A stretch of DNA of 57,698 nt from a virus: the IMG/VR virus record IMGVR_UViG_3300020109_001608, positions 1 to 57,698 of that record, one strand, 5' to 3'. Below, piece after piece: positions 20,376-55,882 of the stretch. The position numbers and the translations under genes were made by a program. How positions within the stretch are numbered: position 1 is the first letter of the stretch; every line of letters begins with the position of its first letter. The notes under the pieces were generated by a model. That model was not told the origin of the DNA. It saw nothing but the letters and a program-made list of their open reading frames with translations, and ran no database searches.

Positions 20376-20386
20376 GGCGATAGTAA

Positions 20387-23443: not shown

Positions 23444-23471
23444 ATAAAAAAAGGGTGGAGAGTGAAACCCA

Positions 23472-25214: not shown

Positions 25215-25247
25215 CTTTTAATTTCATTTTAGACCCCAAAAAATCCC

Positions 25248-25275: not shown

Positions 25276-25282
25276 CTAAATA
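25276..25282 (+). promoter_or_regulatory. T4-like late promoter (CTAAATA)
   Basis: CTAAATA followed by ACTAAAAG lies 24 bases before the ATG at 25307, in a 92-base gap that otherwise holds only the candidate terminator. Confidence 0.6.
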
Positions 25283-25306
25283 ACTAAAAGCCGAGTGTAA
25301 ACGAAG

Positions 25307-26224: not shown

Positions 26225-27361
26225 ATGGCTGCAACAACTAGAAAAGGTGTTTGGGACTTACAACAGGTTAGAGATCAGTATCTTGCTGGGGAATGGGAAC
26301 AACAGTTTCAATTATTTGCATGGGGGATTAATAATTTTGGTCAATTAGGGCAAAACAATATAACTTATTATTCGTCACCAATACAAATTCCAGGAACACA
26401 GTGGAGTTCAGTTTCTGGATCTTATGCTGCATCAGCATTTAAAACTGATGGAACATTATGGGTATGGGGACGAAATGATTATGGTGGATTAGGTCTAAAT
26501 GATACAGTAAGACGTTCATCACCTGTTCAAATTCCAGGAACACAGTGGAGTACTTCTAATGGTGGTGTTTACAATATGTACGCAACCAAAACTGATGGAA
26601 CACTGTGGGCATGGGGTTATAATGGACTTGGACAGTTAGGACAAAATAACAGAGTAGATTATTCATCACCAACACAAATTCCAGGAACACAGTGGAATAA
26701 AATACAAGTAGGGACTTATACTGATTATAGTGTTATTGCAACCAAAACTGATGGAACACTATGGATGTGGGGTGAGGGTGCTAGTGGGCGTTTAGGACAA
26801 AATGATGTAGCAAATCGTTCATCACCAGTACAAATTCCAGGAACACAATGGAATAATATTGGGAAGGGACAATCTTTTACGTTTGCAACCAAAACTGATG
26901 GAACCTTGTGGATATGGGGAAATAATATTGAAGGACAACTGGGACAAAATAATCGAGCGAATTATTCGTCACCACGACAAATTCCAGGCACACAGTGGAA
27001 TTTAGTAGATGGTGGAGGTCAACATTCATTAGCAACCAAAACTGATGGAACATTATGGGCATGGGGTTATAATCCTTATGGAGAACTGGGACAAAATACT
27101 GGTGCAAATCGTTCATCACCAGTACAAATTCCAGGGACACAGTGGGCACTTGATGCAAATTCTATTAATGGATTGTATGAGGGATGTGCTGCACGTAAAA
27201 CTGATGGAACATTATGGGCATGGGGAAGAAATATTTATGGAATGATGGGACAAAATAATACAACAGATCATTCATCACCAAGACAAATTCCAGGAACACA
27301 ATGGATTGCAGTAACTGGTAATACTTATGAAGTCATAGCAATCAAATCTCTTGTAAACTAA
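26225..27361 (+). CDS. RCC1-type seven-bladed propeller protein (copy 1)
   Basis: A 378-residue protein. A 29-residue N-terminal tag (GVWDLQQVRDQYLAGEW) resembles cyanophage fibre adaptors. Seven RCC1-like repeats of about 50 residues follow, opening at LFAWGIN, LWVWGRN, LWAWGYN, LWMWGEG, LWIWGNN, LWAWGYN and LWAWGRN. Each then has G-x-L-G-Q/L-N, SSPxQIPGTQW and, except in the last, KTDGT. Seven repeats are what a closed RCC1 propeller needs. AGGAG sits before the ATG. Blade 3 shares 66 identical bases with the gene at 50320, and blade 5 shares 78 identical bases with the gene at 52038. Cellular RCC1 binds chromatin, but that role is implausible here. A binding or receptor-recognition head is inferred. 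Confidence 0.8.
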   Translation: MAATTRKGVWDLQQVRDQYLAGEWEQQFQLFAWGINNFGQLGQNNITYYSSPIQIPGTQWSSVSGSYAASAFKTDGTLWVWGRNDYGGLGLNDTVRRSSPVQIPGTQWSTSNGGVYNMYATKTDGTLWAWGYNGLGQLGQNNRVDYSSPTQIPGTQWNKIQVGTYTDYSVIATKTDGTLWMWGEGASGRLGQNDVANRSSPVQIPGTQWNNIGKGQSFTFATKTDGTLWIWGNNIEGQLGQNNRANYSSPRQIPGTQWNLVDGGGQHSLATKTDGTLWAWGYNPYGELGQNTGANRSSPVQIPGTQWALDANSINGLYEGCAARKTDGTLWAWGRNIYGMMGQNNTTDHSSPRQIPGTQWIAVTGNTYEVIAIKSLVN

Positions 27362-27365
27362 ACTT

Positions 27366-27372
27366 ATAAATA
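27366..27372 (+). promoter_or_regulatory. T4-like late promoter (ATAAATA)
   Basis: ATAAATA lies three bases after the first RCC1 gene's stop codon and 21 bases before the ATG at 27394. It is the last strong late core before 34661. Confidence 0.65.
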
Positions 27373-27393
27373 CTTTTAAAGTTTCACATACCG

Positions 27394-28116
27394 ATGAAAA
27401 TATTCAAGTTCTTATCAGTAGATGCAAAAACTGGTATCTCAGTAGAAATTGAAAGATCACTAGAAGGACCAACACGACCAAATCTACCAGGAATTGGTGA
27501 AGTGTTCTATTTTGGTGGTTGGATGTATGCAGAGGCAGATGATACTGCCGAAGAAAATCCAGGTAATTACATCTTTGAAGTTACAGAAGCAGACTTTGAA
27601 GAAGCAATTCGTGGTGAATTTGAAGGCATCAAAACAGCAAGAATTGCAAATGCCTATGAAGAAGAAAGAGGCATTCGTGAAGCACTATTTGGTAATAAGT
27701 ATCATGGATCTGCTACGATTGCTGGTGTCTATAAGTATGAGCAAGCAAAAGCACTGTTAGATGATCCAACTGCTGATGCACCTGAAATCAAAGCAGAAGC
27801 AACTGCTAGGGGTGTATCTGCTGCTGTGATTGCACAAAGAATTGTTGATAATCACGAAGCATTTAGACTGAAAGAAGCAAAACTTGCAGGTCTTCGTGGT
27901 AAGATTGTTGATCGTCTACAAGCACTGACTTTTGATGAGACTGATGCACTTGGAAGTTGGAAAGAACTAACTGAAAGAACAGAAGTCATTGGAACACTTC
28001 CAGAAAGAGAAGGTGGTCCAGCACTAGCAAATAGACCAGAAGGCAATAATGATGTTAAAGTTGGATATTATTCACCAAGCTTAGGACTGCGCTGGGAATG
28101 GTTGAATAAGGGTTGA
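27394..28116 (+). CDS. Fibre-associated protein, possibly tail fibre assembly-like
   Basis: A 240-residue protein between two RCC1 propeller genes. The N-terminal about 85 residues form a small mixed domain (MKIFKFLSVDAKTGISVEIE, then GEVFYFGGWMYAEAD). Residues about 85-190 are Ala/Glu/Lys-rich helices (YKYEQAKALLDDPTADAPEI, ARGVSAAVIAQRIVDNHEAF, KLAGLRGKIVDRLQALTFDE). The C-terminal tail ends YYSPSLGLRWEWLNKG. Helical domains of this kind occur in phage tail-fibre assembly and attachment proteins, but I see no diagnostic residues. Its placement, four bases before the next RCC1 ORF, suggests a chaperone or adaptor for these propellers. Confidence 0.45.
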   Translation: MKIFKFLSVDAKTGISVEIERSLEGPTRPNLPGIGEVFYFGGWMYAEADDTAEENPGNYIFEVTEADFEEAIRGEFEGIKTARIANAYEEERGIREALFGNKYHGSATIAGVYKYEQAKALLDDPTADAPEIKAEATARGVSAAVIAQRIVDNHEAFRLKEAKLAGLRGKIVDRLQALTFDETDALGSWKELTERTEVIGTLPEREGGPALANRPEGNNDVKVGYYSPSLGLRWEWLNKG

Positions 28117-28120
28117 TGTT

Positions 28121-29254
28121 ATGATTACGTCAACGACGAGTGGTGTTTGGTTACTTGCGGATCAATATGCAAAGAATAATGCAGAAAGGTGGCGTCCTAG
28201 TGGATCTGCATTGTTTGCATGGGGATATAATGCCCAAGGACAACTAGGGCAAAATGATACAGTACCACGTTCATCACCAAGACAAATTCCAGGATCCGCA
28301 TGGAATGAAGTTAATGTGGGTCAATATAACATAATTGCTACTAAAACTGATAATACTTTATGGATTTCTGGTGATAATGCTTATGGGACTTTGGGATTAA
28401 ATGATATAGTACCACGTTCATCACCGGTGCAAGTCCCAGGAACCCAATGGAATAAAGTATCTTCGGGTGCTGTAATTACAGCAGCAACTAAAACTGATAA
28501 TACTTTATGGGTATGGGGAAATAATGATGTTGGACAACTGGGATTGAACAATACAGTACTTCGTTCATCACCTACACAAATTCCAGGAACACAATGGAAC
28601 CTGACTTGTGTTGGAGACCAATACATATATGCAATTAAAACCGATGGAACACTATGGGCATGGGGTAGAAATGGAAATGGTGCAATGGGGCAAAATGATA
28701 CATCCAATCGTTCCTCACCAGTACAAATTCCAGGAACACAATGGAATTCTTTAGCTGGTGGCGGAAGATATGCTGCCGGAGCATCAAAAACTGATGGAAC
28801 TTTATGGATGTGGGGATTTAATAATTATGGTTCCTTAGGACTGAACGACCGAGTAGCACGTTCATCACCAGTGCAAGTTCCGGGAACTCAATGGTCATTT
28901 AACTCCGTTTCTAGTATAGCATATTCTTATCAAACAGCATTAACAAAAACTGATGGAACATTATGGGTATGGGGACATAATGGTGAAGGTCAATTAGGAC
29001 AGAATGATCTAGTAACACGTTCATCACCAGTTCAAGTTCCAGGAACACAGTGGTCTAAATCTAGTTGTGGTGCAAGTATTACATTAGCAACCAAAACTGA
29101 TGGAACATTATGGGCATGGGCTGGATATGTCTATGGCGAAATCGCACAAAATAGTGTAGTAAGATATTCATCACCACAGCAAATTCCAGGAACACAGTGG
29201 ACTAGTTTCTCCGCAGGATATTATAGTGCAGCAGCAGTCAGACCTTCTTATTAA
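28121..29254 (+). CDS. RCC1-type seven-bladed propeller protein (copy 2)
   Basis: A 377-residue protein with a 30-residue lead containing GVWLLADQYAKNNAERW. Repeats open at LFAWGYN, LWISGDN, LWVWGNN, LWAWGRN, LWMWGFN, LWVWGHN and LWAWAGY. The last is the most degenerate (GEIAQN in place of GQLGQN). The first two blades carry KTDNT rather than KTDGT at their ends, a substitution also seen in the genes at 45975 and 53726. Blade 1 shares 62 identical bases (28233-28294) with blade 4 of the gene at 44260. No late promoter lies directly upstream, so it is probably transcribed from 27366. It is followed after six bases by a run of oxygenase and glycosyltransferase genes. Confidence 0.8.
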   Translation: MITSTTSGVWLLADQYAKNNAERWRPSGSALFAWGYNAQGQLGQNDTVPRSSPRQIPGSAWNEVNVGQYNIIATKTDNTLWISGDNAYGTLGLNDIVPRSSPVQVPGTQWNKVSSGAVITAATKTDNTLWVWGNNDVGQLGLNNTVLRSSPTQIPGTQWNLTCVGDQYIYAIKTDGTLWAWGRNGNGAMGQNDTSNRSSPVQIPGTQWNSLAGGGRYAAGASKTDGTLWMWGFNNYGSLGLNDRVARSSPVQVPGTQWSFNSVSSIAYSYQTALTKTDGTLWVWGHNGEGQLGQNDLVTRSSPVQVPGTQWSKSSCGASITLATKTDGTLWAWAGYVYGEIAQNSVVRYSSPQQIPGTQWTSFSAGYYSAAAVRPSY

Positions 29255-29260
29255 CACTTT

Positions 29261-30401: not shown

Positions 30402-30403
30402 CT

Positions 30404-32953: not shown

Positions 32954-33546
32954 CTTATACTTACCTAGATGCTTGTGTAGAAAATCCAAGAACAGTTGAT
33001 CTTGGAAATGATATGTATGCAATTGAATTCTGGAAACCAGAATTCTGCAAAGAACTGATTAACATCGCAGAAAGCATTGGTGGGTTTTCTAGTGTTCCTG
33101 GTGATCCTGTTTATGGTCAAGAACTACGTATTACACAAATCAGTGACTTGTTTTATAAGAACTATTGTGAACACTGGAAACGTGTAGTATCCCCATTTCT
33201 AGATGAAAAGTTTGGTCTTCCAAGTGAACAATGGTTTACTGGTTGGAAAGTTCCATTCATCATTAAGTATTCAATGGACAGTCAACGTTCATTAAGAATT
33301 CATGCTGATGATAGCTTGATTACTGGTACAATCAGATTGAATGATGAATACACTGGTGGTGAACTGATTTATCCACGTCAGAATTTTAGTAATAAAGATG
33401 TACCTGTGGGAACAATGATCATTGCCCCATCCATTGTGACGCATTTGCATTATAGTAGTGAACTTCAAAGTGGTATGAAGTATTCGTTTGTATCATGGAC
33501 AAAACTAAATAAGAAAGATAACGGGATTAACTTCGCAGAAGTCTAA
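32950..33546 (+). CDS. 2OG-Fe(II) oxygenase, lysyl/prolyl-hydroxylase-like
   Basis: A 198-residue protein. The motif line is clear: LRIHADDSLITGTIRLNDEY (H-x-D), TGGELIYPRQ, PVGTMIIAPSIVTHLHYSSE (distal His), then SGMKYSFVSW, where Lys stands in the usual Arg position. WFTGWKVPFIIKY is the strand before the iron site. It is close in layout to the enzyme at 29261, including TGGEL and YSxVSW, so the two are probably paralogues flanking this segment. Its stop overlaps the start of the third RCC1 gene by one base (TAATG), which couples an oxygenase directly to a propeller. Confidence 0.75.
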   Translation: MTYTYLDACVENPRTVDLGNDMYAIEFWKPEFCKELINIAESIGGFSSVPGDPVYGQELRITQISDLFYKNYCEHWKRVVSPFLDEKFGLPSEQWFTGWKVPFIIKYSMDSQRSLRIHADDSLITGTIRLNDEYTGGELIYPRQNFSNKDVPVGTMIIAPSIVTHLHYSSELQSGMKYSFVSWTKLNKKDNGINFAEV

Positions 33547-34661
33547 TGGGAATAAGACAAAACACTTGGAACCTAGGTGGACATTATGACTTAACCAATA
33601 GTGGGCAGAATGCTTATGTTGGAAGTATTTTATTATTTGCTTGGGGTGGTAATGGACTTGGGCAATTAGGACAAAATGCTAGAGCATATCGTTCATCACC
33701 AGTTCAAATTCCAGGAACACAATGGAATACAATTTCTGCGACTTATTATATGACACTAGCGACAAAAACCGATGGAACTTTATGGACATGGGGTAGAAAC
33801 CAATTTGGACAATTAGGACAAAATAATACAACATATCATTCATCACCAGTTCAAATTCCAGGAACACAATGGAGTTTGGCTACTGGAGGGGCTTTTCACA
33901 CAGTGGCGACTAAAACAGATGAAACTTTATGGGCATGGGGATACAATCAATATGGTAATTTAGCACAAAACAACAAAGTAAATTATTCATCACCAAGACA
34001 AATTCCAGGAACACAGTGGTCTCGCATTGCTAGTAGTAATTATCAATCGCTATTAGCAACCAAGACTGATGGAACGTTGTGGTCATGGGGATATAATTAT
34101 AATGGAGTGTTGGGACAAAATAATACGATAAATCGTTCGTCACCAGTACAAATTCCAGGAACACAATGGAATAAAGTTTCTGTTGGTAGATATCATATGC
34201 TAGCAACCAAAACTGATGGAACTTTATGGACATCGGGTCGTAATAATCGAGGACAATTAGGACAAAATGATAGAACATATCGTTCATCACCAATTCAAGT
34301 CCCAGGAACACAATGGAATTCGATTGCTAGTAGTAATTATCAGTCATTAACAACAAAAACTGATGGAACTTTATGGTCATGGGGATTTAATAGTAGTGGA
34401 CAATTGGGACAAAACAATCAAACATATTATTCATCACCAGTACAAATTCCAGGAACACAATGGAATAATATTCAAGCTTATTATCTAACTAACATTGCCA
34501 CAAAAACCGATAGTACGTTATGGGCATGGGGAGGTAACAGTTTTGGACAATTAGGACAAAATAATCTAACACAATATTCATCACCAGTACAAATTCCAGG
34601 GACATCATGGAATTCGATTGCTAGTGGTGCTTATCATTCATTAGCAATCCAACAACAATAA
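33546..34661 (+). CDS. RCC1-type seven-bladed propeller protein (copy 3)
   Basis: A 371-residue protein with a 29-residue lead (MGIRQNTWNLGGHYDLTNSG). Blades open at LFAWGGN, LWTWGRN, LWAWGYN, LWSWGYN, LWTSGRN, LWSWGFN and LWAWGGN. Two blades are near-duplicates in the variable loop (SIASSNYQS in one and RIASSNYQS in the other). Among the nine copies this one has the most regular G-x-L-G-Q-N motifs. It is translationally coupled to the oxygenase before it. Its final codons overlap the late promoter at 34661, so it ends a transcription unit. A receptor-binding or decorated-head role is inferred from family and context only. Confidence 0.8.
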   Translation: MGIRQNTWNLGGHYDLTNSGQNAYVGSILLFAWGGNGLGQLGQNARAYRSSPVQIPGTQWNTISATYYMTLATKTDGTLWTWGRNQFGQLGQNNTTYHSSPVQIPGTQWSLATGGAFHTVATKTDETLWAWGYNQYGNLAQNNKVNYSSPRQIPGTQWSRIASSNYQSLLATKTDGTLWSWGYNYNGVLGQNNTINRSSPVQIPGTQWNKVSVGRYHMLATKTDGTLWTSGRNNRGQLGQNDRTYRSSPIQVPGTQWNSIASSNYQSLTTKTDGTLWSWGFNSSGQLGQNNQTYYSSPVQIPGTQWNNIQAYYLTNIATKTDSTLWAWGGNSFGQLGQNNLTQYSSPVQIPGTSWNSIASGAYHSLAIQQQ

Positions 34662-34667
34662 TAAATA
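34661..34667 (+). promoter_or_regulatory. T4-like late promoter (ATAAATA)
   Basis: ATAAATA overlaps the stop of RCC1 copy 3 and lies 21 bases before the sulfotransferase ATG. It probably drives the packed 34689-43441 gene block. Confidence 0.65.
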
Positions 34668-34688
34668 CATCAAACAACATTCTTCATT

Positions 34689-44198: not shown

Positions 44199-44222
44199 TG
44201 TTTTTGATTAATTATAACAGCA

Positions 44223-44229
44223 ATAAATA
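44223..44229 (+). promoter_or_regulatory. T4-like late promoter (ATAAATA)
   Basis: ATAAATA lies in the 61-base gap between the divergent hldD-like gene and the first large RCC1 fibre, 30 bases before that fibre's ATG. A promoter for the minus-strand gene should also lie here or inside the fibre, but I do not see a clear one. Confidence 0.65.
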
Positions 44230-44259
44230 ATAAAAGCAACTAGAAGTATAATAGTTATA

Positions 44260-45957
44260 ATGTCTGTAACTAAAGCTCAACTCTTATCCCCAGTAGGAAT
44301 TGTTACTGCATCAGGCGTAAATGTAAGCGGTACGATTACTGCTACTAGTTTTTCAGGTAGCGGTGCAAATTTAACTGGGGTTGGCGTTACAGCAGGGGCA
44401 AGTGTTAATACATCAGGTATTATTACAGCAGTTAGTTTTTCTGGTGATGGAAGTAATTTAAGTGGTATTGGTATTGGATCTACTGCAAATGTTGCTACAA
44501 CAGGAATTATCACAGCATCAAAGTTTTCTGGAAGTGGTATCGGATTAACAAACATTGGTGGACCTATCGCAGGATTGGTTTATAGTCCACCCATTGGTGC
44601 TACGGGTATTGGTTCATTATCCAATATTTCAATTACATTCAGTAAACCAATTCAAGCAGGTGTTGGTACAATTACTTTAAGAACTGATAGTGCGACTGGT
44701 TCAATTATTGAAAGTTTTGATGTTGGAACAAGTTCCTCTATTAGTATTAGTGGAGCAAAACTGATTATTGACCCAACAAGTAATCTAGGTGCAGGTACAA
44801 CGCATTATGTTGTAATTCCAGCAGGAGCACTGAAAGATACTTATGCTGGTATTTCAAGTAATGTAGGTATTACCAGTTATTATTTTAGAACACAACAAAT
44901 TGATTATTCTTTATTTGCATGGGGGTATAATGTTCTTGGGGCATTAGGACAAAATGATACTACAACTCGTTCATCACCAATACAAATTCCAGGAACACAG
45001 TGGAATAAAGTTACTGATGGGTACTCAAGTTTACTAGCAACTAAAACAGATGGAACGTTGTGGGCATGTGGATACAATAATTTCGGTGAACTAGGTCAGA
45101 ATGATCAAGTAAATTATTCATCACCAAGACAAATTCCAGGAACACAGTGGAGTTCTTTGGATGCAGATAATTATGTATTTTTAGCAACTAAAACAGATGG
45201 AACGTTGTGGGGATGTGGAAATAACGGTTATGCAGCATTAGGACAAAACAATCAAACATATTATTATTCATCACCAGTACAAATTCCAGGAACACAATGG
45301 AGATCTGTGCATGCTGGGGGTTTGCATACGCTAGCAACTAAAACTGATGGAACTTTATGGGCGTGGGGACATGCTCCCCAAGGACAACTAGGGCAAAATG
45401 ATACAGTACCACGTTCATCACCAAGACAAATTCCAGGAACACAATGGAATACAGCTTCCGTTGGATATTATAGTTCAATAGCGACAAAAACCGATGGAAC
45501 CTTGTGGGTTTGGGGCGATGCTTCTTATGGAGTTTTAGGACAAAATGATGTAGCAAATCGTTCATCACCAAGACAAATTCCAGGAACACAGTGGTCCGTA
45601 ATTCAATCTGTATATCATGCTCAAGGATCAATGTTCGCAACTAAAACAGATGGAACGTTGTGGGCATGGGGATATAATTATCGGGCAATTCTTGGACAAA
45701 ATGATATAACAGATCGTTCATCACCAAGACAAATTCCAGGAACACAGTGGAGATCTATAAGCAGCAGATATCGACATGTTGTAGCAACAAAAACTGATGG
45801 AACATTATGGTCATGGGGATCTAATGCTTTCGGTAAATTAGGATTGAATAATACAACATATTGCTCATCGCCGGTACAAATTCCAGGAACCACATGGAGT
45901 TCTATGGTTACAGCTGGTACTTTCAATTCATTCGCTATTAAAGAAACATCATCATAA
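44260..45957 (+). CDS. Tail fibre: shaft + Big_5-like Ig domain + RCC1 propeller (copy 4, N-terminal type A)
   Basis: A 565-residue protein. Residues 1-105 are shaft repeats (TSGIITAVSFSGDGSNLSGI, TTGIITASKFSGSGIGLTNI). Residues about 108-215 are a Big_5-like Ig domain (VYSPPIGATGIGSLSNISIT, FSKPIQAGVGTITLRTDSAT, GTTHYVVIPAGALKD). Residues about 218-565 are seven RCC1 blades opening at LFAWGYN, LWACGYN, LWGCGNN, LWAWGHA, LWVWGDA, LWAWGYN and LWSWGSN. Cysteines occur in blades 2 and 3. Blade 7 shares 79 identical bases with blade 2 of the gene at 48161. Blade 4 shares 62 with blade 1 of the gene at 28121. It starts MSVTKAQLLSPVG, an adaptor type shared with the genes at 50320 and 52038. Confidence 0.8.
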   Translation: MSVTKAQLLSPVGIVTASGVNVSGTITATSFSGSGANLTGVGVTAGASVNTSGIITAVSFSGDGSNLSGIGIGSTANVATTGIITASKFSGSGIGLTNIGGPIAGLVYSPPIGATGIGSLSNISITFSKPIQAGVGTITLRTDSATGSIIESFDVGTSSSISISGAKLIIDPTSNLGAGTTHYVVIPAGALKDTYAGISSNVGITSYYFRTQQIDYSLFAWGYNVLGALGQNDTTTRSSPIQIPGTQWNKVTDGYSSLLATKTDGTLWACGYNNFGELGQNDQVNYSSPRQIPGTQWSSLDADNYVFLATKTDGTLWGCGNNGYAALGQNNQTYYYSSPVQIPGTQWRSVHAGGLHTLATKTDGTLWAWGHAPQGQLGQNDTVPRSSPRQIPGTQWNTASVGYYSSIATKTDGTLWVWGDASYGVLGQNDVANRSSPRQIPGTQWSVIQSVYHAQGSMFATKTDGTLWAWGYNYRAILGQNDITDRSSPRQIPGTQWRSISSRYRHVVATKTDGTLWSWGSNAFGKLGLNNTTYCSSPVQIPGTTWSSMVTAGTFNSFAIKETSS

Positions 45958-45960
45958 ATA
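45954..45960 (+). promoter_or_regulatory. T4-like late promoter in a repeated cassette
   Basis: ATAAATACCTAAAAAACGATAATG runs into the next gene. The same box recurs with small changes at 48140, 50302, 52020, 53705 and 55884, always starting in or just after the previous stop codon. Confidence 0.75.
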
Positions 45961-45974
45961 CCTAAAAAACGATA

Positions 45975-48143
45975 ATGGCGTTAAACTTTCCTGATAGTCC
46001 TTCACTAAATGACTTATACACTGACCCAACAACAGGGTTTACATATCAGTGGAATGGTGAAGTATGGAAAAGTGCAGTATTATCAAATCCGGATTCAATC
46101 AAAGAACTTACAGATATTTCATCATCATTTAATGGTATAACAACATCATTTTCACTAGCAATATCAGGCAATTCAGTTACACCAACCAATGCACAACAAC
46201 TAATTATTAATCTTGGTGGTGTAATTCAAAATGCAGGAAATGATTATACAGTTTCTGGTAGCACACTTTACTTCACAACACCACCATCATCAGGGCTTAC
46301 ATTCACTGGAATATTTGTTGGATCTGCATTAGCATTAAACACAGTATCATCTTATGCAGTAGAACCACAAGACTTAACAACAGGTGGTCCTTCATGGAAT
46401 ACTTCTGGTGATGTAAGAATTTCTGGTGTCGGTACAGTTTCTAATACTGGATCAGCAACCACAGCACTGTATGTTGCTGGTGGTGCTAGAATTACTGGTA
46501 TTCTAACTGTTGGTTCATCAAGCGTCACAATCAATGGTGTTACTGATAGAATTAGTGTAGGAACTGGATTAACAATCAGTTCATCAGGTATCACTGCTGG
46601 TGTAATTACTGCGACAACATTCTATGGTGATGGTAGCAATCTAACAGGTGTTGGTGTTGGATCCACAGCAAACATCAATACAACTGGTATTATTACTGCA
46701 TCATACTTCTATGGATCTGGTATTGGAATTACAAATGCAGGTCCATTAGGTAGAATTACACCAATTTCTTATTCACCTGCGATTGGTGCGACAAATCAAA
46801 GTCCTGATGTAAGTGTTGTAATTACTTTCAATAAACCACTGGTGGCTGCTGCCGGAACAATTACCATTAGAAGTGGAAGTGCATCAGGATCAATTGTTGA
46901 AAGTTTTGATGTTCAGACAAGCCCACTTTTAAGTATCAGTGGTGGTGTTCTTACAATTAATCCAACGGACTCAACAATTGGTACTGGAACAACTTATTTC
47001 GTTGTTGTACCTGAAAATGCATATAAAGATATTTTAGGTTCTTCTGGTAACGTAGGAATTACAACTTATAGTTTTACAACTGCAACACAATTCTTGCAGT
47101 TGTTTTCAACAGGTCAAAATCACACTGGACAATTGGGTCAAAATGATAGAACATATCGTTCATCACCAATACAAATTCCAGGTATTCAATGGTCTCGTAT
47201 TTCTAGTGGTGCGGATTTTGGTTTTGGAATAAAAACAGATGGAACCTTATGGGCATGGGGCAATAATCAATCTTCTAGATTAGGACAAAATAGTACTACA
47301 CAATATTCATCGCCAAGACAAATTCCTGGGACACAATGGAGTGAAGTTGGTGGCGCTTATAATATTGGAATAGCTAAAAAAACAGATAATACTTTATGGG
47401 TTTGGGGACAGAATAATAGAGGAAACTTAGGTCAAAATGATATAACTTATTATTCATCACCAAGACAAATTCCAGGAACACAGTGGAATACGTTTTCTTC
47501 ATGCTATTTTACAATTTTTGCAACTAAAACAGATGGAACTTTATGGTCATGGGGAAGTAATCAGTACGGAGAATTAGGTATCAATCTTAGTGGTCAATAT
47601 CGTTCATCACCAACACAAATTCCAGGAACACAATGGGGATCTTTGGGTGGGGGAGGATATCATATGTCGGCAACAAAAACTGACGGAACTTTATGGGCAT
47701 GGGGTTATAATGGAAATGGAAATTTAGGTCTCAACGATACCGCAAATCGTTTATCACCTGTTCAAGTTCCAGGAACACAATGGAACAATACTGTATCTGT
47801 AAATTATGTGGGAATGTTCACTAGAAGTAATGGGACATTGTGGTCTTGTGGTTATAATAACTTTGGTGCATTAGGACAAAATGATAGAACACAATACTCA
47901 TCACCAAGACAAATTCCAGGAACACAGTGGGATATATCATTAGTTGATGGTTCTTCAAGTGCATTCCATACAATAGCGAAAAAAACAGACGGAACATTAT
48001 GGATGTGGGGTCAAGGTTCTACTGGACAATTAATACAAAACAGTCCAATAGATCTTTCATCGCCAGTTCAAGTTCCAGGAACACAGTGGACACGCGCAGC
48101 CACAGGGTATAGACATTCCTTCGTAATGAAATCAGTAACATAA
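45975..48143 (+). CDS. Tail fibre: structured N-terminus + Big_5-like Ig domain + RCC1 propeller (copy 5, type B)
   Basis: A 722-residue protein. The type B N-terminus is MALNFPDSPSLNDLYTDPTT, then YQWNGEVW, shared with the genes at 48161 and 53726. Residues about 45-115 are a beta domain (SFNGITTSFSLAISGNSVTP, VIQNAGNDYTVSGSTLYFTT). Residues about 150-240 are shaft (TALYVAGGARITGILTVGSS). Residues about 262-365 are Big_5-like (DVSVVITFNKPLVAAAGTIT). Seven blades then open at LFSTGQN, LWAWGNN, LWVWGQN, LWSWGSN, LWAWGYN, LWSCGYN and LWMWGQG. The fourth and seventh depart from G-Q-N (GINLSG and LIQNS). One blade has KTDNT and one has RSNGT. Confidence 0.8.
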   Translation: MALNFPDSPSLNDLYTDPTTGFTYQWNGEVWKSAVLSNPDSIKELTDISSSFNGITTSFSLAISGNSVTPTNAQQLIINLGGVIQNAGNDYTVSGSTLYFTTPPSSGLTFTGIFVGSALALNTVSSYAVEPQDLTTGGPSWNTSGDVRISGVGTVSNTGSATTALYVAGGARITGILTVGSSSVTINGVTDRISVGTGLTISSSGITAGVITATTFYGDGSNLTGVGVGSTANINTTGIITASYFYGSGIGITNAGPLGRITPISYSPAIGATNQSPDVSVVITFNKPLVAAAGTITIRSGSASGSIVESFDVQTSPLLSISGGVLTINPTDSTIGTGTTYFVVVPENAYKDILGSSGNVGITTYSFTTATQFLQLFSTGQNHTGQLGQNDRTYRSSPIQIPGIQWSRISSGADFGFGIKTDGTLWAWGNNQSSRLGQNSTTQYSSPRQIPGTQWSEVGGAYNIGIAKKTDNTLWVWGQNNRGNLGQNDITYYSSPRQIPGTQWNTFSSCYFTIFATKTDGTLWSWGSNQYGELGINLSGQYRSSPTQIPGTQWGSLGGGGYHMSATKTDGTLWAWGYNGNGNLGLNDTANRLSPVQVPGTQWNNTVSVNYVGMFTRSNGTLWSCGYNNFGALGQNDRTQYSSPRQIPGTQWDISLVDGSSSAFHTIAKKTDGTLWMWGQGSTGQLIQNSPIDLSSPVQVPGTQWTRAATGYRHSFVMKSVT

Positions 48144-48146
48144 ATA
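48140..48146 (+). promoter_or_regulatory. T4-like late promoter in a repeated cassette
   Basis: ATAAATA overlaps the stop of the upstream fibre. From 48148 the following 59 bases are identical to those from 53713, so promoter-proximal leader and adaptor-coding DNA are duplicated together. Confidence 0.75.
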
Positions 48147-48160
48147 CCTAAAAAACGATA

Positions 48161-50305
48161 ATGGCGATAAATTTTCCTGATAGTCCATCGTTAAATCAAA
48201 TTTTCAATGATACAACATCTGGTTTTAGTTTCCAGTGGAATGGTGAAGTATGGAAAAGTTATGTAGATCCAACGATTGGTAATACAACCAAACTAGATGA
48301 TATCAGTGCTTCATTTAATGGAAGCACACAAACCTTTGCACTTACAGTTAATGGAACTGCTGCAACTGCTGATTTAGATCCAGCAAAAATTCTACTTAGC
48401 TTAGGTGGTGTAGCACAAAACCCAGTAGAAGACTATACAATCAGTGGTACAAACATTACATTTACCACTGCACCTGCGAATGGTCTTACATTTTTCGCAG
48501 TTATTTTAGAAACAGGTATATCAAAAGACTATATTTCTTCTGGTATCATTGGTCCAACAGGTCTTTCAACTGGTGGATTTTCTTGGAACACTGGTGGTGA
48601 TTTATACATCAGTGGTGTTGCGACAGTTGCAAATACAGGTACAGCAACAACAGCATTATATGTTTCAGGAAATGCTAGAATTGCTGGTATTCTGACTGTT
48701 GGTTCTTCAAGTATTACGTTTGATGGTACAAATAATAGAATTACTGGAACAGGTATTACAATTAGCAGTGGTGGTATTGTAGCAAGCGCAATCACTGCGA
48801 CCAGTTATTCTGGTGATGGTGCAAATCTTACTGGTGCAGGATTAGGTCCAACAAGTAACATCAACACCACAGGTATCATCACTGCATCTAAATTCTCTGG
48901 TGATGCAACATACTTAACTGATATTGGTGGTGTAATTCAAGGTATTGTTTATAATCCTACTGTTGGTGCAACTGGTATTGCAGCCACAACAAACATTGAT
49001 ATTACATTTAACAAACCAATCAAAGCAGGTATTGGAACGATTACATTAAGAACTGATAGTGCATCAGGATCAATTGTTGAAAGTTATGATATTACTTCAA
49101 GTAATCGTCTTACAATCAGCGGTGCGAAGTTAACAATTGACCCCACTAGCAATTTAGGTGCAGGTACAACGCACTTTGTTGTAGTTCCTGCTGGTACAGT
49201 CAAAGACTTGTTTAATACTGGTAGCAATGCTGTAATTGATACTTATAGTTTCACGACACAATCTTTTACCCTGTTTAGTTTTGGAAGAAATCCCAATGGA
49301 CAATTAGGACAAAATGATACAGTAAGACGTTCATCACCAACACAAATTCCAGGAACACAATGGAGTTATATAAACTCTGCAAACTATCATTCATTAGCAA
49401 CAAAAACTGATGGAACTTTGTGGGCATGGGGATCTAATGCTTTCGGTAAATTAGGATTGAATAATACAACATATTGCTCATCGCCGGTACAAATTCCAGG
49501 AACATCATGGAGATTTATTTCTTCTGATTATAACACCACAATAGCAACTAAAACCGATGGAACTTTATGGGCATGGGGAAATAATGGTGCCGGAGAATTG
49601 GGACAATCTAATACATACAATCGTTCATCACCAATTCAAATTCCAGGAACACAGTGGGGAAATATATCTGCAACTGCAAGTGATACATTTGCAACTAAAA
49701 CCGATGGAACATTATGGTCATGGGGATATAATAGTTATGGTCAGTTGGGACAAAATGATAGAGTAAATCGTTCATCACCAATACAAATTCCAGGAACACA
49801 GTGGAATAATATACAAACAGGATTCTATTCTACATTTGCAACTAAAACCGATGGAACTTTATGGGCATGGGGATATAATCATAGAGGACAACTGGGACAA
49901 AATAATACAACATATCGTTCATCACCAGTACAAATTCCAGGAACATCGTGGAATTCTATAGGTGGTTTTCTTCAACATTTTTTAGCAACAAAAACCGATG
50001 GAACATTATGGTCATGGGGATATAATAATGCCGGAAGATTGGGACAAAATGATACAGCATTTCGTTCATCACCAGTTCAAGTTCCAGGCACACAATGGAG
50101 TTCTATAAGTGCTGGTGGTCAACATTCACTAGCTACTAAAACTGATGGAACTTTATGGGCATGGGGTAGAAATTATTTTGGAGAACTTGGAGCAAATACC
50201 TCTGGTTCAGCAGCATATCGTTCATCACCAATACAAATTCCAGGAACATCTTGGAGTTCTGTTTCTGCTGGTTATCAAAGTTCATCAGCAATCAAATCAC
50301 AATAA
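48161..50305 (+). CDS. Tail fibre: type B N-terminus + Big_5-like Ig domain + RCC1 propeller (copy 6)
   Basis: A 714-residue protein with the MAINFPDSPSLNQIFNDTTS adaptor. The Big_5-like domain holds GIAATTNIDITFNKPIKAGI and GTTHFVVVPAGTVKDLF. Blades open at LFSFGRN, LWAWGSN, LWAWGNN, LWSWGYN, LWAWGYN, LWSWGYN and LWAWGRN. Blade 3 has GQSN for GQNN, and the last has an inserted Ser-Gly-Ser-Ala loop (GANTSGSAAYRSSP). Blade 2 is a near-copy of blade 7 of the gene at 44260. The end of blade 6 and the start of blade 7 share 85 identical bases with blades 4-5 of the gene at 52038. The 5' region is a near-copy of the gene at 53726. Confidence 0.8.
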   Translation: MAINFPDSPSLNQIFNDTTSGFSFQWNGEVWKSYVDPTIGNTTKLDDISASFNGSTQTFALTVNGTAATADLDPAKILLSLGGVAQNPVEDYTISGTNITFTTAPANGLTFFAVILETGISKDYISSGIIGPTGLSTGGFSWNTGGDLYISGVATVANTGTATTALYVSGNARIAGILTVGSSSITFDGTNNRITGTGITISSGGIVASAITATSYSGDGANLTGAGLGPTSNINTTGIITASKFSGDATYLTDIGGVIQGIVYNPTVGATGIAATTNIDITFNKPIKAGIGTITLRTDSASGSIVESYDITSSNRLTISGAKLTIDPTSNLGAGTTHFVVVPAGTVKDLFNTGSNAVIDTYSFTTQSFTLFSFGRNPNGQLGQNDTVRRSSPTQIPGTQWSYINSANYHSLATKTDGTLWAWGSNAFGKLGLNNTTYCSSPVQIPGTSWRFISSDYNTTIATKTDGTLWAWGNNGAGELGQSNTYNRSSPIQIPGTQWGNISATASDTFATKTDGTLWSWGYNSYGQLGQNDRVNRSSPIQIPGTQWNNIQTGFYSTFATKTDGTLWAWGYNHRGQLGQNNTTYRSSPVQIPGTSWNSIGGFLQHFLATKTDGTLWSWGYNNAGRLGQNDTAFRSSPVQVPGTQWSSISAGGQHSLATKTDGTLWAWGRNYFGELGANTSGSAAYRSSPIQIPGTSWSSVSAGYQSSSAIKSQ

Positions 50306-50308
50306 ATA
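50302..50308 (+). promoter_or_regulatory. T4-like late promoter in a repeated cassette
   Basis: ATAAATACCTAAAAAACCATGAG: the spacing to the ATG is shorter by three bases than in the type B genes, because ATG follows directly after AAAAAACC. Confidence 0.75.
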
Positions 50309-50319
50309 CCTAAAAAACC

Positions 50320-52023
50320 ATGAGCCAGTCTAATGCACAACTTGTAGCACCAGTTGGAATATTCACTGCATCAGGTATCAATGCATCTGGTGTTGTAACT
50401 GCTACTAGTTTTTCTGGTGATGGTTCACAATTACAAGGTGTTGGTGTAGGAACCACAGGAAGTATCAATTCATCTGGTATTGTTACTGCATCTGCTTTTT
50501 ATGGTAATGGTGCTAATCTAACTGGTATTACACTGATTGGCCCAACAGATAATTATACAACAACAGGTATCATCACTGCTGGTTCTTTTTATGGTGATGG
50601 TATTGGTATCACAAATATTGGTGGTCCTTTAAGTCCAATCATTTATTCACCTGGTATTGGTGTAACAAACATAAGTAATGATACGAATATTGTTATCACA
50701 TTCAACAAACCAATCGCAGCGGCAGCAGCAACAACAGGTATTTCAACAATTACTTTAAGAAGCGGTAGTGCATCAGGAACGATTGTTGAAAGTTATGATA
50801 TTGCGAATGTTGCTGCTGGATCTAGCGTAAGTATTAGTGGTGCTGTTCTTACAATTAATCCAACGGACTCAGTAATCAGTGCTGGAACAACTTTTTATGT
50901 TGTTATACCTGCTGGAACATTACAAGACACAATTGATACAAGCGATAATACTGGAATTACAACTTATAGTTTTACAACTGCGGCACAGTATTTGCAGTTG
51001 TTTGGGTGGGGAAATAATCAATATGCTGAATTGGGTCTTAATGATGTAATATTACGTTCATCACCAACACAAATTCCAGGAACACAGTGGAATTCTGTAA
51101 ATGGTGGTAATGAACATTCATTAGCAACAAAAACTGATGGAACCTTATGGTCATGGGGTTATAACCGTGGAACTTTAGGTATAAATGACGTTATACCACG
51201 TTCATCACCGGTACAAGTTCCAGGCACACAATGGAGTTCTATAAGTGCTGGTAGTCATTTATTTGCAACTAAAACTGATGGAACACTGTGGACATGGGGT
51301 GGTAATTTACTTGGACAGTTAGGACAAAATAACAGAGTAGATTATTCATCACCAACACAAATTCCAGGAACACAATGGAATTTTATAAATGCTGCACTTG
51401 GTATTTCACTAGCAACAAAAACTGATGGAACTTTATGGGTATGGGGAGGAAATGGAAATGGACAATTAGGATTAAATAATAGAATAGGTCGCTCATCACC
51501 AACACAAATTCCAGGAACCCAATGGAATAAAATTGCTGGTTCTAATACACTTGCAGTAGCAACCAAAACTGATGGAACACTATGGGCATGGGGTCGCAAT
51601 TATCAGGGACAATTAGGACAAAATAATACAACATATCGTTCATCACCAACACAAATTCCAGGAACATCATGGAATTCTGTAAGTGCTGATAGTGTTACTA
51701 CATTAGCAACCAAAACTGATGGAACTTTATGGTCATGGGGTTATAATTATCTGGGAAATCTAGGACAAAATAATACAGTACAATATTCATCACCAAGACA
51801 AATTCCAGGAACACAATGGAATGCTATTAATTATGAAAACGGGATTAGTTTTGCAACAAAAACTGATGGAACTATGTGGGCTTGGGGTCGAAATACTTAT
51901 GGACAATTGGGATTAAATAATACAATAGGTCGCTCATCACCAACACAAGTTCCAGGGACACAGTGGACATCTTCAATTTCTTCGGGCAATCATTCCTCAT
52001 TTGCTATCAAAACAGTAACATAA
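50320..52023 (+). CDS. Tail fibre: type A shaft + Big_5-like Ig domain + RCC1 propeller (copy 7)
   Basis: A 567-residue protein starting MSQSNAQLVAPVGIFTASGI. The shaft has three TATSFSGDG/TASAFYGNG-type units. The Big_5-like domain (NISNDTNIVITFNKPIAAAA, GTTFYVVIPAGTLQDTI) contains an extra AAAATTGIS insertion. Blades open at LFGWGNN, LWSWGYN, LWTWGGN, LWVWGGN, LWAWGRN, LWSWGYN and MWAWGRN. Blade 2 is short by one residue (YNRGTLGIND). Blade 3 shares 66 identical bases with blade 3 of the gene at 26225, which lacks the shaft and Ig domain. That places the blade pool in common between free-standing and fibre-linked propellers. Confidence 0.8.
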   Translation: MSQSNAQLVAPVGIFTASGINASGVVTATSFSGDGSQLQGVGVGTTGSINSSGIVTASAFYGNGANLTGITLIGPTDNYTTTGIITAGSFYGDGIGITNIGGPLSPIIYSPGIGVTNISNDTNIVITFNKPIAAAAATTGISTITLRSGSASGTIVESYDIANVAAGSSVSISGAVLTINPTDSVISAGTTFYVVIPAGTLQDTIDTSDNTGITTYSFTTAAQYLQLFGWGNNQYAELGLNDVILRSSPTQIPGTQWNSVNGGNEHSLATKTDGTLWSWGYNRGTLGINDVIPRSSPVQVPGTQWSSISAGSHLFATKTDGTLWTWGGNLLGQLGQNNRVDYSSPTQIPGTQWNFINAALGISLATKTDGTLWVWGGNGNGQLGLNNRIGRSSPTQIPGTQWNKIAGSNTLAVATKTDGTLWAWGRNYQGQLGQNNTTYRSSPTQIPGTSWNSVSADSVTTLATKTDGTLWSWGYNYLGNLGQNNTVQYSSPRQIPGTQWNAINYENGISFATKTDGTMWAWGRNTYGQLGLNNTIGRSSPTQVPGTQWTSSISSGNHSSFAIKTVT

Positions 52024-52026
52024 ATA
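52020..52026 (+). promoter_or_regulatory. T4-like late promoter in a repeated cassette
   Basis: ATAAATACCTAAAAAACAATGAG leads into the second MSQS-type fibre. The first A belongs to the Thr codon before the upstream TAA. Confidence 0.75.
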
Positions 52027-52037
52027 CCTAAAAAACA

Positions 52038-53708
52038 ATGAGCCAGTCCAAAGCACAACTTACTAATCCATTAGGTCCTGTAAATTTAAGTGGTTTAAGT
52101 GCGACTGGGGTTGTAACTGCTACAACTTTCATTGGTAATGGTTCTGGTTTAACTGGAATTGCACTTACAGGAAACATCAATACAACAGGCATCATTACTG
52201 CATCTGCATTTTATGGTAGCGGTGCAAATTTAAGTGGAGCAGGATTAGGACCAACAAGTAATATCAATACATCAGGTATCATCACAGCAGGAAAGTTTTA
52301 TGGTGATGGAAGTTTATTAACAGATATTGGTGGAGCATTTACACCATTAACTTATAGTCCTGGTATTGGTCAAACAAATGTAGGTGTATCATCAAACATC
52401 ACCATTACATTTAATAAACCAATTAAAGTTGGAACTGGTACAATTACTTTAAGAACTGGAAGTGCATCAGGAACGATTGTTGAAAGTTTTGATGTTACTT
52501 CTAGTAGTAGACTTTCAATAAATGCAGGTGTTTTAACGATTAGTCCAACAAATTCACTTGCAGGGTTAACTACACATTATGTTGTGTTACCAGCAGGAAC
52601 AATTAAAGATACTTATAATATTGATAGTAATACTTTAATTGATACTTATAGTTTTACCACACAGATATCTAATGTTCTCTTTGTTTGGGGGAATAATCTT
52701 TATGGAGACCTTGGACAAAATAATACAACACAATATTCATCTCCCGTTCAAATACCAGGAACGCAATGGAGTTCATTTTCTGCCCGCCATGTTACATTAG
52801 CAACAAAAACTGATGGAACCTTATGGTCATGGGGATATGGACAACAAGGTCAATTAGGACAAAATAATCTAACACAATATTCATCACCAGTACAAATTCC
52901 AGGAACACAATGGAATAAAATTAATGCAGAAGGTTATATAAATTCACTAGCAACAAAAACTGACGGAACTTTGTGGGCATGGGGATATAATATTGAAGGA
53001 CAACTGGGACAAAATAATCGAGCGAATTATTCGTCACCACGACAAATTCCAGGCACACAGTGGAGTTCCATAAGTTGCGGTGGTCATACATTAGCGACCA
53101 AAACTGATGGAACCTTATGGTCATGGGGTTATAATTATGCCGGAAGATTGGGACAAAATGATACAGTAAGACGTTCATCACCAACACAAATTCCAGGCAC
53201 ACAATGGAGTTCTATAAGTGCTGGTGGTCAACATTCACTAGCTACTAAAACTGATGGAACTTTATGGGCATGGGGAAGTAATCATTTAGGTTACTTGGGA
53301 CAAAATAATACAACATATTATTCATCACCAAGACAAATTCCAGGAACGCAGTGGAGTTCGGTTTCTGCTACTTATGGTGGAGGAAATCAGTCTGTTGCAA
53401 CAAAAACTGATGGAACATTGTGGGCATGGGGTTACAATGGATATGGAACATTGGGACAAAATGATACTACAACTCGTTCATCACCAATACAAATTCCAGG
53501 AACACAATGGAATCTAATAGAAGGAGGTAATAACTTACTTCTCGCAACCAAAACTGATGGAACACTATGGATATGGGGATATGGACGTGAAGGAGCATTA
53601 GGACAAAATACTACAATAAACCTTTCATCACCAACACAAGTTCCAGGAACACAATGGAATTTCGTGAATGCTGGTGGTACCTACATTTCAGGTGGAATCA
53701 GATCATAA
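52038..53708 (+). CDS. Tail fibre: type A shaft + Big_5-like Ig domain + RCC1 propeller (copy 8)
   Basis: A 556-residue protein starting MSQSKAQLTNPLGPVNLSGL. The Big_5-like domain holds GVSSNITITFNKPIKVGTGT and THYVVLPAGTIKDTYN. Blades open at LFVWGNN, LWSWGYG, LWAWGYN, LWSWGYN, LWAWGSN, LWAWGYN and LWIWGYG. Blade 3 has 78 bases identical to blade 5 of the gene at 26225. Blades 4-5 have 85 identical to blades 6-7 of the gene at 48161. Blade 6 resembles blade 1 of the gene at 44260 at DNA level around GQNDTTTRSSPIQ. It therefore looks like a mosaic of at least three other copies. Confidence 0.8.
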   Translation: MSQSKAQLTNPLGPVNLSGLSATGVVTATTFIGNGSGLTGIALTGNINTTGIITASAFYGSGANLSGAGLGPTSNINTSGIITAGKFYGDGSLLTDIGGAFTPLTYSPGIGQTNVGVSSNITITFNKPIKVGTGTITLRTGSASGTIVESFDVTSSSRLSINAGVLTISPTNSLAGLTTHYVVLPAGTIKDTYNIDSNTLIDTYSFTTQISNVLFVWGNNLYGDLGQNNTTQYSSPVQIPGTQWSSFSARHVTLATKTDGTLWSWGYGQQGQLGQNNLTQYSSPVQIPGTQWNKINAEGYINSLATKTDGTLWAWGYNIEGQLGQNNRANYSSPRQIPGTQWSSISCGGHTLATKTDGTLWSWGYNYAGRLGQNDTVRRSSPTQIPGTQWSSISAGGQHSLATKTDGTLWAWGSNHLGYLGQNNTTYYSSPRQIPGTQWSSVSATYGGGNQSVATKTDGTLWAWGYNGYGTLGQNDTTTRSSPIQIPGTQWNLIEGGNNLLLATKTDGTLWIWGYGREGALGQNTTINLSSPTQVPGTQWNFVNAGGTYISGGIRS

Positions 53709-53711
53709 ATA
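53705..53711 (+). promoter_or_regulatory. T4-like late promoter in a repeated cassette
   Basis: ATAAATATCTAAAAAACGATAATG: C to T after the core is the only change from the 48140 copy up to base 53771. Confidence 0.75.
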
Positions 53712-53725
53712 TCTAAAAAACGATA

Positions 53726-55882
53726 ATGGCGATAAATTTTCCTGATAGTCCATCGTTAAATCAAATTTTCACAGATGCTACATCTGGTTTTACCTATCAG
53801 TGGAACGGAACTGTTTGGATCAACTATAACTATACTGCACCAGCAAAGATCTTAGAACTTGATGATATCAAAAGTTCTTTCAATGGTTCAACACAAACCT
53901 TTGCGCTTACAGTATCAGGTTCTGCTGCTACACCAGTCAAAGCAGATCAGTTAATTATCAACATTGGTGGTATTACACAAAATCCAGGAACTGACTTTAC
54001 TGTATCAGGAAGTAATATTACATTCACAACAGCACCAACAACAGGTCTTGACTTTTATGGTGTTCTGTTAGGTGGTTCAACAAGCTTATCAGCAGTATCA
54101 TCAAATACAGTAAGACCGGATTCATTTACAACTGGTGGACCAACATGGAATTCATCAGGTGATCTAAAAGTATCTGGTGTTACAACGATTGCAAACACTG
54201 GATCTGCAAGTACAGCACTGTATGTTTCAGGAAATGCTAGGATCACTGGAATTGTAACAGTTGGATCATCAAGTATTACGATTGATGGTGCAAATAATTC
54301 AATTCAAGTTGGAACTGGTGCAACATTAAATGCATCAGGTATTACTGTTGGTATCATTACTGGTACATTCTATGGTAGTGGTGCAGGACTTGCGAATGTT
54401 GGTCTCGGAACACAAGGAAGTTTGAATACAACAGGTGTCATTACTGCGACAAGTTTCTATGGTGATGGTTCTGGTCTTACAAATCTTGGTGGTCCTTTAC
54501 AACCACTGACGTATTCACCTAGTATTGGGCAAACAAATATTTCTGATGTACCAACAATCGTTGTTACATTCAACAAACCACTGAAAATTAATACAGGATC
54601 AATTACAATCAGAAGTGGAAGTGCATCAGGTACAATCATTGAAAGTTTTGATGTAACATCCAGTTCTGCATTAAGTATTAATGGTGGTGCTTTGACGATC
54701 ACACCAACAGTTGCTTTAGGTGCTGGTACAACACATTTTGTTGTATTCCCTGCGGCAGCATATAAAGATACTTTTGAAAGTTCTTCAAGTGTTGGTATTA
54801 CAACTTATAGCTTTGTAACTGCGACACAGTATTTGCAGTTGTTTGCATGGGGTTCTAATTCTAACGGAACATTAGGACAAAATAATATAACAAATCGTTC
54901 GTCACCAATACAAATTCCAGGTGTTCAGTGGGCACAAATTGATAGTTACTACCACACAGCAGCAACAAAAACTGATGGTACATTGTGGGTATGGGGATCT
55001 AATGGTAACGGTAAATTAGGATTGAATGATAGTGGAACAATAACTGCACGTTCATCACCAGTACAAATTCCAGGAACATCATGGAATTCTATTAGTCTTG
55101 GATATGCTCATTCATTAGCAACAAAAACTGATGGAACTTTATGGGCATGGGGATATAACGGATTGGGGGGATTAGGGTTAAATGATGTAGCCAATCGTTC
55201 ATCACCAAGACAAATTCCAGGAACACAATGGGAAAATTTGGCTGGTGGCTTATATGAGACCCTTGCAACCAAAACTGATGGAACTTTATGGTCATGGGGT
55301 TATAATGCCCAAGGACAATTGGGACTTAATATTAATAACAATTATTTTTCATCACCAGTTCAAGTTCCAGGAACACAATGGAGTAGACCATATAGTGGAT
55401 ATACGTTTAGTGGAGCACTAAAAACTGATGGAACTTTATGGACATGGGGAAGAAATCAAAGGGGAAATCTAGGACAAAATAATACAGTACAATATTCATC
55501 ACCAAGACAAATACCAGGAACACAATGGAGTGCAGCTTCATTCGGTTATTATCATATTTTAGCAACAAAAACTGATAATACTTTATGGGCATGGGGCAGT
55601 GAAGGAGATGGTTCTATCGGACAAAATGATAATGTGGTTTATTCATCACCAAGACAAATCCCAGGAACCCAATGGTCATTGACCCAAAATCGTGGTGGTG
55701 GATATTTTAGTTTAGCACTTAAAACTGATGGAACTTTATGGGCAGTGGGTGGAAGAAATGGAAGTGGTCATTTAGGTCAAAACGACGATATACGTCGTTC
55801 ATCACCAACACAAATTCCAGGAACACAGTGGTCTTCATCATCACAAGCATATGCAATTGGATATGCAATCAAATCAGTATAA
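53726..55882 (+). CDS. Tail fibre: type B N-terminus + Big_5-like Ig domain + RCC1 propeller (copy 9)
   Basis: A 718-residue protein with adaptor MAINFPDSPSLNQIFTDATS. The Ig-like part has DVPTIVVTFNKPLKINTGSI and GTTHFVVFPAAAYKDTF. Blades open at LFAWGSN, LWVWGSN, LWAWGYN, LWSWGYN, LWTWGRN, LWAWGSE and LWAVGGR. This copy has the greatest loop variation: an insertion in blade 2 (LNDSGTITARSSP), NINNNYFSSP in blade 4, and a W to V change at blade 7. It closes the tandem array. The first blade has PGVQW, the same change in the same place as PGIQW in the gene at 45975, supporting common descent of type B copies. Confidence 0.8.
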   Translation: MAINFPDSPSLNQIFTDATSGFTYQWNGTVWINYNYTAPAKILELDDIKSSFNGSTQTFALTVSGSAATPVKADQLIINIGGITQNPGTDFTVSGSNITFTTAPTTGLDFYGVLLGGSTSLSAVSSNTVRPDSFTTGGPTWNSSGDLKVSGVTTIANTGSASTALYVSGNARITGIVTVGSSSITIDGANNSIQVGTGATLNASGITVGIITGTFYGSGAGLANVGLGTQGSLNTTGVITATSFYGDGSGLTNLGGPLQPLTYSPSIGQTNISDVPTIVVTFNKPLKINTGSITIRSGSASGTIIESFDVTSSSALSINGGALTITPTVALGAGTTHFVVFPAAAYKDTFESSSSVGITTYSFVTATQYLQLFAWGSNSNGTLGQNNITNRSSPIQIPGVQWAQIDSYYHTAATKTDGTLWVWGSNGNGKLGLNDSGTITARSSPVQIPGTSWNSISLGYAHSLATKTDGTLWAWGYNGLGGLGLNDVANRSSPRQIPGTQWENLAGGLYETLATKTDGTLWSWGYNAQGQLGLNINNNYFSSPVQVPGTQWSRPYSGYTFSGALKTDGTLWTWGRNQRGNLGQNNTVQYSSPRQIPGTQWSAASFGYYHILATKTDNTLWAWGSEGDGSIGQNDNVVYSSPRQIPGTQWSLTQNRGGGYFSLALKTDGTLWAVGGRNGSGHLGQNDDIRRSSPTQIPGTQWSSSSQAYAIGYAIKSV

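Follow-up and report, generated by a model that had tools for sequence, protein, structure and literature searches.

The RCC1-type array and its setting

What a phage would do with nine RCC1-type proteins encoded beside its tail fibre genes is the question raised by this locus. The window, which is the whole stretch of DNA that was analysed, is a 57,698-base virus record. Judged by its gene matches, the source virus is a T4-like, cyanophage-type phage, and Kyanoviridae cyanophages supply the nearest matches to both the tail protein and the large tail fibre protein, the latter at up to 64% identity. The window and the Synechococcus phage S-SM2 feature a common order of tRNA-Leu, tail fibre, large protein and baseplate wedge initiator, however, in S-SM2 the place of the RCC1 array is taken by a different set of fibre, 2OG oxygenase and appendage genes. 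The genes upstream of the array include a tail fibre of family phrog_529, and the 23472 product is the baseplate wedge initiator by PHROGs profile match. These neighbours and the S-SM2 order support the location of the array in a fibre/baseplate locus. The upstream block and the nine RCC1-type genes are as follows.

14541..26212, + strand: tail fibre (14541), 1016-aa protein (20387) and baseplate/fibre proteins (23472 and 25307), immediately upstream of the array
26225..27361, + strand: free-standing RCC1 head, slot A, tag KGVWDLQQVRDQYLAGEW, which is common to the slot across viruses; 7 repeats; PF00415 E 3.8e-54
28121..29254, + strand: free-standing RCC1 head, slot B, tag TSGVWLLADQYAKNNAERW; 7 repeats; PF00415 E 2.7e-50
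33546..34661, + strand: free-standing RCC1 head, slot C, tag IRQNTWNLGGHYDL; 7 repeats; structure modelled
44260..45957, + strand: short-stalk RCC1 protein; low-confidence shaft (residues 1-100), Big_5 at about 109-211, seven-bladed head
45975..48143, + strand: long-stalk RCC1 protein; FPDSPSLN N-domain, shaft, Big_5, head
48161..50305, + strand: long-stalk RCC1 protein; domain matches, 7 repeats
50320..52023, + strand: short-stalk RCC1 protein; domain matches, 7 repeats
52038..53708, + strand: short-stalk RCC1 protein; domain matches, 7 repeats
53726..55882, + strand: long-stalk RCC1 protein; domain matches, 7 repeats

The original prediction described nine RCC1-type proteins of seven repeats each, three free-standing and six stalked, and the nine ORFs and their Big_5 matches bear this out. 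Each ORF contains seven SSPxQ[IV]PGxxW anchors with a spacing of 48-53 residues. Pfam RCC1 (PF00415) matches all nine proteins above the curated cut-off (E 8e-45 to 6e-61), as does the RCC1-like domain PF25390 (E 8e-57 to 8e-83), and the Big_5 bacterial Ig-like domain matches the six long proteins, in which a shaft and the Big_5 domain precede the head. The stalk is short in 44260, 50320 and 52038 and long, with an additional N-terminal FPDSPSLN domain, in 45975, 48161 and 53726, while the three free-standing heads carry N-terminal tags of 29-30 residues. The count of 63 blades is correct and is made up of 54 complete SSP-to-SSP repeats and nine blades closed by both chain ends. The repeat form given for them holds as a general motif, but it is not invariant, as KTDN, KTDE, KTDS and one RSNG are found.

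The same array is present in five other IMG/VR contigs from other metagenomes, which are collinear with it at 99.98-99.996% identity and show no indels over about 47-48 kb. The array is therefore no assembly accident, and it is stable in its population. Away from the contig ends, the six assemblies differ at six bases (five sites: 44936, 45811, 49672, 50058 and 51307-51308), all in stalked RCC1 genes. The differences may reflect true micro-variation or assembly errors caused by the repeats, and they are treated as uncertain because one pair makes a stop codon; for the same reason they were set aside as a direct sign of hypervariability.

Fold and number of blades

The AlphaFold2 model of the 33546 head is a seven-bladed propeller with a mean pLDDT of 92 and 28 blade strands (7 x 4). 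As in other RCC1 domains, the two chain ends share one blade, which starts at the N-terminus and is completed by the last strand at the C-terminus. The 44260 protein was also modelled with a seven-bladed head, residues 1-100 being poor. The seven-bladed fold with four strands per blade is assigned to 33546 and 44260 by model and to the other heads by their seven repeats. The nearest solved structures to 33546 are UVR8, HERC1, HERC2, RCC1 and RPGR (TM 0.81-0.88; profile E 1e-35 to 1e-63), which are likewise seven-bladed, however, they are eukaryotic cell proteins and their repeats are far less alike. The closed propeller that had been proposed is thus supported by structure prediction and by structural matches. 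To our knowledge Ran is absent from bacteria, and a role in Ran exchange is not expected.

The retention of seven blades had been called strict and taken as a sign of selection. Among relatives, seven repeats are found in 165 of 181 non-redundant complete ORFs, so that seven is nearly fixed, and five more have fourteen; this set came from IMG/VR and phage records by similarity to seven-bladed queries and is biased toward sevens for that reason. The word strict does not survive, since gp335 of cyanophage S-SRM01 has six clean repeats (record L009, 14177-15211) and possibly forms a six-bladed head. By these repeat counts, closure at seven is kept strongly but not absolutely. RCC1 domains are normally seven-bladed, and seven is a family trait. 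Because of this, retention of seven by itself is insufficient as a sign of special selection.

Chains with fourteen repeats are double heads of two tandem propellers and include those at 9017-11206, 12095-14284 and 17810-19993 of L021 and at 6546-9254 of L031. Another viral contig, L141, features seven free-standing RCC1 genes in direct tandem (1310-9333).

Predicted constant and variable faces

The conserved blade core with variable loops that was originally described agrees with the per-site entropy, which was computed over 34 blades of 49 residues. The PGTQ and TDGT loops are near-invariant with a mean entropy of 0.30 bits, whereas loop 1, after W, and the long loop 2, after WG, have a mean of 1.86 bits (P = 0.002 over positions). 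The two variable regions had been placed after PGTQW and after GQN; both placements stand, but the second region also lies between WG and GQN. Propeller strands alternate in direction as an up-down meander, so the conserved and the variable loop pairs are expected on opposite faces, and the strand order accordingly suggests a propeller with one constant and one variable face. Nearly all cassettes are distinct, both in loop 1 (53 of 54) and in loop 2 (53 of 54). There is no linkage between loop-1 and loop-2 cassettes (r = 0.06), a result that old divergence also predicts, and for this reason weight is put on identical DNA tracts instead. That the heads may present many binding faces, as first proposed, is plausible.

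The reading that we consider somewhat better than an even bet is that the nine proteins are late virion adhesins whose variable faces bind the host and whose loop cassettes are exchanged in register by recombination. The propeller would keep its PGTQ and TDGT face constant, and the hypervariable face of loops 1 and 2 may be the surface that binds the host envelope.

It is less probable, though a real contender, that the proteins decorate the virion without specific binding, as hair-like or capsid/tail ornaments whose repeats homogenise neutrally and which provide weak nonspecific adhesion or particle stability. The virion of phAPEC6 bears hair-like appendages on tail and capsid together with RCC1-like virion proteins, to which the hairs have not been assigned; recombination can homogenise repeats without selection, and here nine similar heads are found at one locus. 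The loops argue otherwise, as variation is concentrated on one face while the strands and the other loops are conserved, and the distinct cassettes are more than neutral homogenisation would leave.

Identical DNA tracts between blades

Between genes, blade identity is 59.1% whether the blade positions are the same or different, and within a gene it is 59.4%; across the nine heads, the blades form one pool without gene or position signal. Eight identical tracts of 51-85 nt link different head genes. All eight are in register, and 7 of them join different blade numbers. In 200 synonymous-codon shuffles, which keep the proteins and the codon usage, no tract-holding pair reached its observed length, and the null maximum in those pairs was 47 nt. 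The longest tracts cover one loop cassette and end in the conserved core, while the other loop of that blade differs.

50082..50166, + strand: 85-nt tract, repeated exactly at 53191-53275; a single loop-1 cassette, shared by 48161 blade 6 and 52038 blade 4
45812..45890, + strand: 79-nt tract, repeated exactly at 49425-49503; a single loop-2 cassette, shared by 44260 blade 6 and 48161 blade 1
26922..26999, + strand: 78-nt tract, repeated exactly at 52987-53064; a single loop-2 cassette, shared by 26225 blade 4 and 52038 blade 2

From this pattern we infer that the tracts arose by recombination or gene conversion in register, with the exchange points falling in the cores; duplication of blades over short distances would be another possible source of such tracts. 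Five other viruses have tracts of 87-179 nt (G006, L086, L133, L134 and L138); five show no tract excess (L012, L077, L115, L131 and L135). Exchange in action was not seen among the six assemblies, which are of the same phage and have heads almost without variation.

The conserved blade cores would serve as homology blocks, and ordinary homologous recombination or gene conversion could therefore move loop cassettes from a blade of one head to a blade of another, with reading frame and register preserved. Such exchange would keep seven blades, reshuffle the surface and need no dedicated mutator. Diversity-generating retroelements on phage fibres likewise diversify a binding face on a fixed scaffold. 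Unlike in those systems, no reverse transcriptase was found in the 16 records searched, a count to be read in light of the fact that the window and most of the records are fragments. It is a tentative proposal, for which we would not yet claim even chances, that the array is a retroelement-free diversification system in which the cores act as recombination blocks and cassettes circulate among dozens of blade positions, giving combinatorial receptor-binding faces on a scaffold that stays seven-bladed, while the docking tags stay apart from the shuffled heads.

Tags and heads across viruses

The free-standing heads of other viruses occupy orthologous slots that are marked by N-terminal tags, which form two sets, A/B/C and D/E/F. 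Across 17 viruses, 48 of 49 tags have their closest match in the same slot, but this holds for just 7 of 49 heads, which is no more than chance. For 26 of 49 heads the closest match is instead another head of the same virus, with permutation p values of 0.0008 (A/B/C) and 0.0002 (D/E/F). Between viruses, head identity is 48.6% for slot matches vs 48.5% for mismatches in one comparison and 60.6 vs 60.7% in the other. Head similarity thus tracks the virus and tag similarity tracks the slot, and therefore the heads evolve in concert within a genome and the tags do not. Saturation of a repetitive protein could partly account for the missing slot signal in heads. The N-terminal tags and the stalks may set the docking place of each protein. 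A search of the phage collection gave no support for these tags carrying other kinds of head, as the slot-A tag occurred in just one record.

Recent tandem duplication without continuing exchange, in which the tracts and the homogeneity reflect young copies, is the way Hua et al. interpret tandem gene arrays of jumbo phages, and a promoter element common to the stalked genes is in its favour. It is an improbable account of this array. The tags and stalks are well diverged, and the blades share identical DNA at different positions, one cassette at a time. Slots A, B and C are also common to distant viruses, from which it follows that the RCC1 genes are old, and heads are alike within a virus.

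Late-promoter-like elements and a probable virion location

T4-type late-promoter-like ATAAATA elements are located just before all six stalked genes.

44223..44229, + strand: late-promoter-like ATAAATA before 44260
45954..45970, + strand: late-promoter-like ATAAATACCTAAAAAAC before 45975
48140..48156, + strand: late-promoter-like element before 48161
50302..50318, + strand: late-promoter-like element before 50320
52020..52036, + strand: late-promoter-like element before 52038
53705..53721, + strand: late-promoter-like element before 53726

The raw ATAAATA count in the window is at chance, and what is informative is the placement and the extended motif ATAAATAYYTAAAAAAC, which has 6 occurrences vs 0.01 expected and lies before five stalked genes and the 55905 ORF. 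Similar elements are found ahead of the stalked genes in four other viral records (G012, L078, L092 and L108). The N-domain of the stalks, including that of 45975, matches virion structural and tail fibre families in PHROGs. A fibre or baseplate locus is one of the features by which receptor-binding proteins are recognised, and the RCC1 array has such a setting in both its neighbours and its late-promoter-like elements. The natural reading of these sequence features is late expression of the nine proteins as virion appendages. A virion role is also favoured by the mass-spectrometric detection of RCC1-like proteins in particles of other phages. The small ORF at 55905-56240 (within 55884-56551), with its own promoter-like element ahead, matches the L-shaped tail fibre assembly family phrog_3304.

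The phAPEC6 and W70 authors suspected a role in DNA condensation or packaging (PMC11370258 for W70), and the RCC1 name, the eukaryotic precedent, the presence of RCC1-like proteins in virions and the mildly basic heads (pI 8.5-9.8) would fit internal DNA-organising or packaging proteins. For the window this is very doubtful: 6 of the 9 proteins bear Ig-like stalks and fibre-type shafts, the genes adjoin tail fibre and baseplate genes, the net head charge is just +2 to +11, and nine diversified faces have no obvious DNA role. The Ig stalks, the fibre locus and the one-faced loop variation argue against an internal DNA role in this phage.

Equally hard to credit are intracellular effectors or inhibitors that block host proteins in infection, as the RCC1-like propeller BLIP-II, which was retrieved by fold search, binds beta-lactamase; the free-standing heads do lack a stalk, but their tags hold fixed slots beside fibre genes, late-promoter-like elements are present and six heads are stalked.

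Relation to known RCC1-type systems

RCC1-type proteins occur at no fewer than 590 places in IMG/VR. The expansion had been thought undescribed, which is not the case, since multi-copy RCC1-type genes have been published for 121Q (13 copies), PBECO4 (6) and phAPEC6 (11), as have RCC1-type structural proteins in GAP32, including gp1 (PMC5259590, PMC7247149). Mass spectrometry has also identified RCC1-like proteins in GAP32 virions. Six proteins listed as DNA condensation proteins were detected by mass spectrometry in phAPEC6 virions, and three RCC1-like proteins by the same method in virions of W70, a Septuagintavirus (PMC11370258). Virion presence of phrog_4219-type RCC1 proteins is known only for GAP32, phAPEC6 and W70. 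The 26225 protein matches phrog_4219, the 'DNA condensation' family of the W70 proteins, with E 7.6e-38, and PHROGs files RCC1 families under DNA, RNA and nucleotide metabolism. The Rak2-like jumbo phages and W70 resemble the window in having tandem or clustered multi-copy RCC1-type genes with products of about 40 kDa. They differ in belonging to other phage groups, and their published accounts note no Ig-stalked versions and do not discuss blade exchange.

A search for arrays in other phages found RCC1 heads in IMG/VR relatives and in the freshwater cyanophage S-SRM01, a cultured relative. S-SRM01 has three free-standing heads (gp335, gp337 and gp344) in a matching layout, with baseplate, fibre, 2OG oxygenase and sulfotransferase genes around them. 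It differs from the window in its tag set (D, E, F), in its one six-repeat head and in having no stalked copies in the stretch viewed. BLIP-II (1jtd, 3qhy) is also an RCC1-type propeller, a bacterial protein that binds its protein ligand tightly, but it is a single secreted protein with shorter repeats. RCC1 proteins as exchanging fibre heads were not found in the open-access literature, which is weak as evidence of absence. One-faced variation, shuffled cassettes and stable docking tags apart from concerted heads appear to be new in combination. If phage RCC1-type proteins are fibre heads whose blades exchange loops, host-binding proteins of a widespread class are now misfiled, and cyanophage host range would gain a simple, testable source of combinatorial change.

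Genes among the heads

The ORF at 27394..28116 (+ strand; about 240 aa), between slots A and B, is conserved. By inspection, a homologue is found at the same place in seven other viral records (L012, L025, L027, L056, L070, L077 and L118), while the D/E/F viruses have an unlike ORF of about 215 aa there. No Pfam match was found for the 27394 product, which is a candidate assembly partner or chaperone.

The region between the heads at 29261-42079 encodes five 2OG-Fe(II) oxygenases (29261, 31683, 36169, 37414 and 40923), and a sulfotransferase (34689), a family 25 glycosyltransferase (35519) and a methyltransferase (36686) are also located among the heads. Genes of two of these kinds, 2OG oxygenase and sulfotransferase, occupy the corresponding position in S-SRM01. 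The oxygenase and transferase genes might modify glycans or the fibres. At 41681-44198 there are genes for a cytidylyltransferase-like protein, a PfkB kinase, a small HAD-like protein and a cupin-like protein, with an NAD-dependent epimerase on the minus strand, and this gene set resembles a split HldE/HldD-type activated-sugar pathway.
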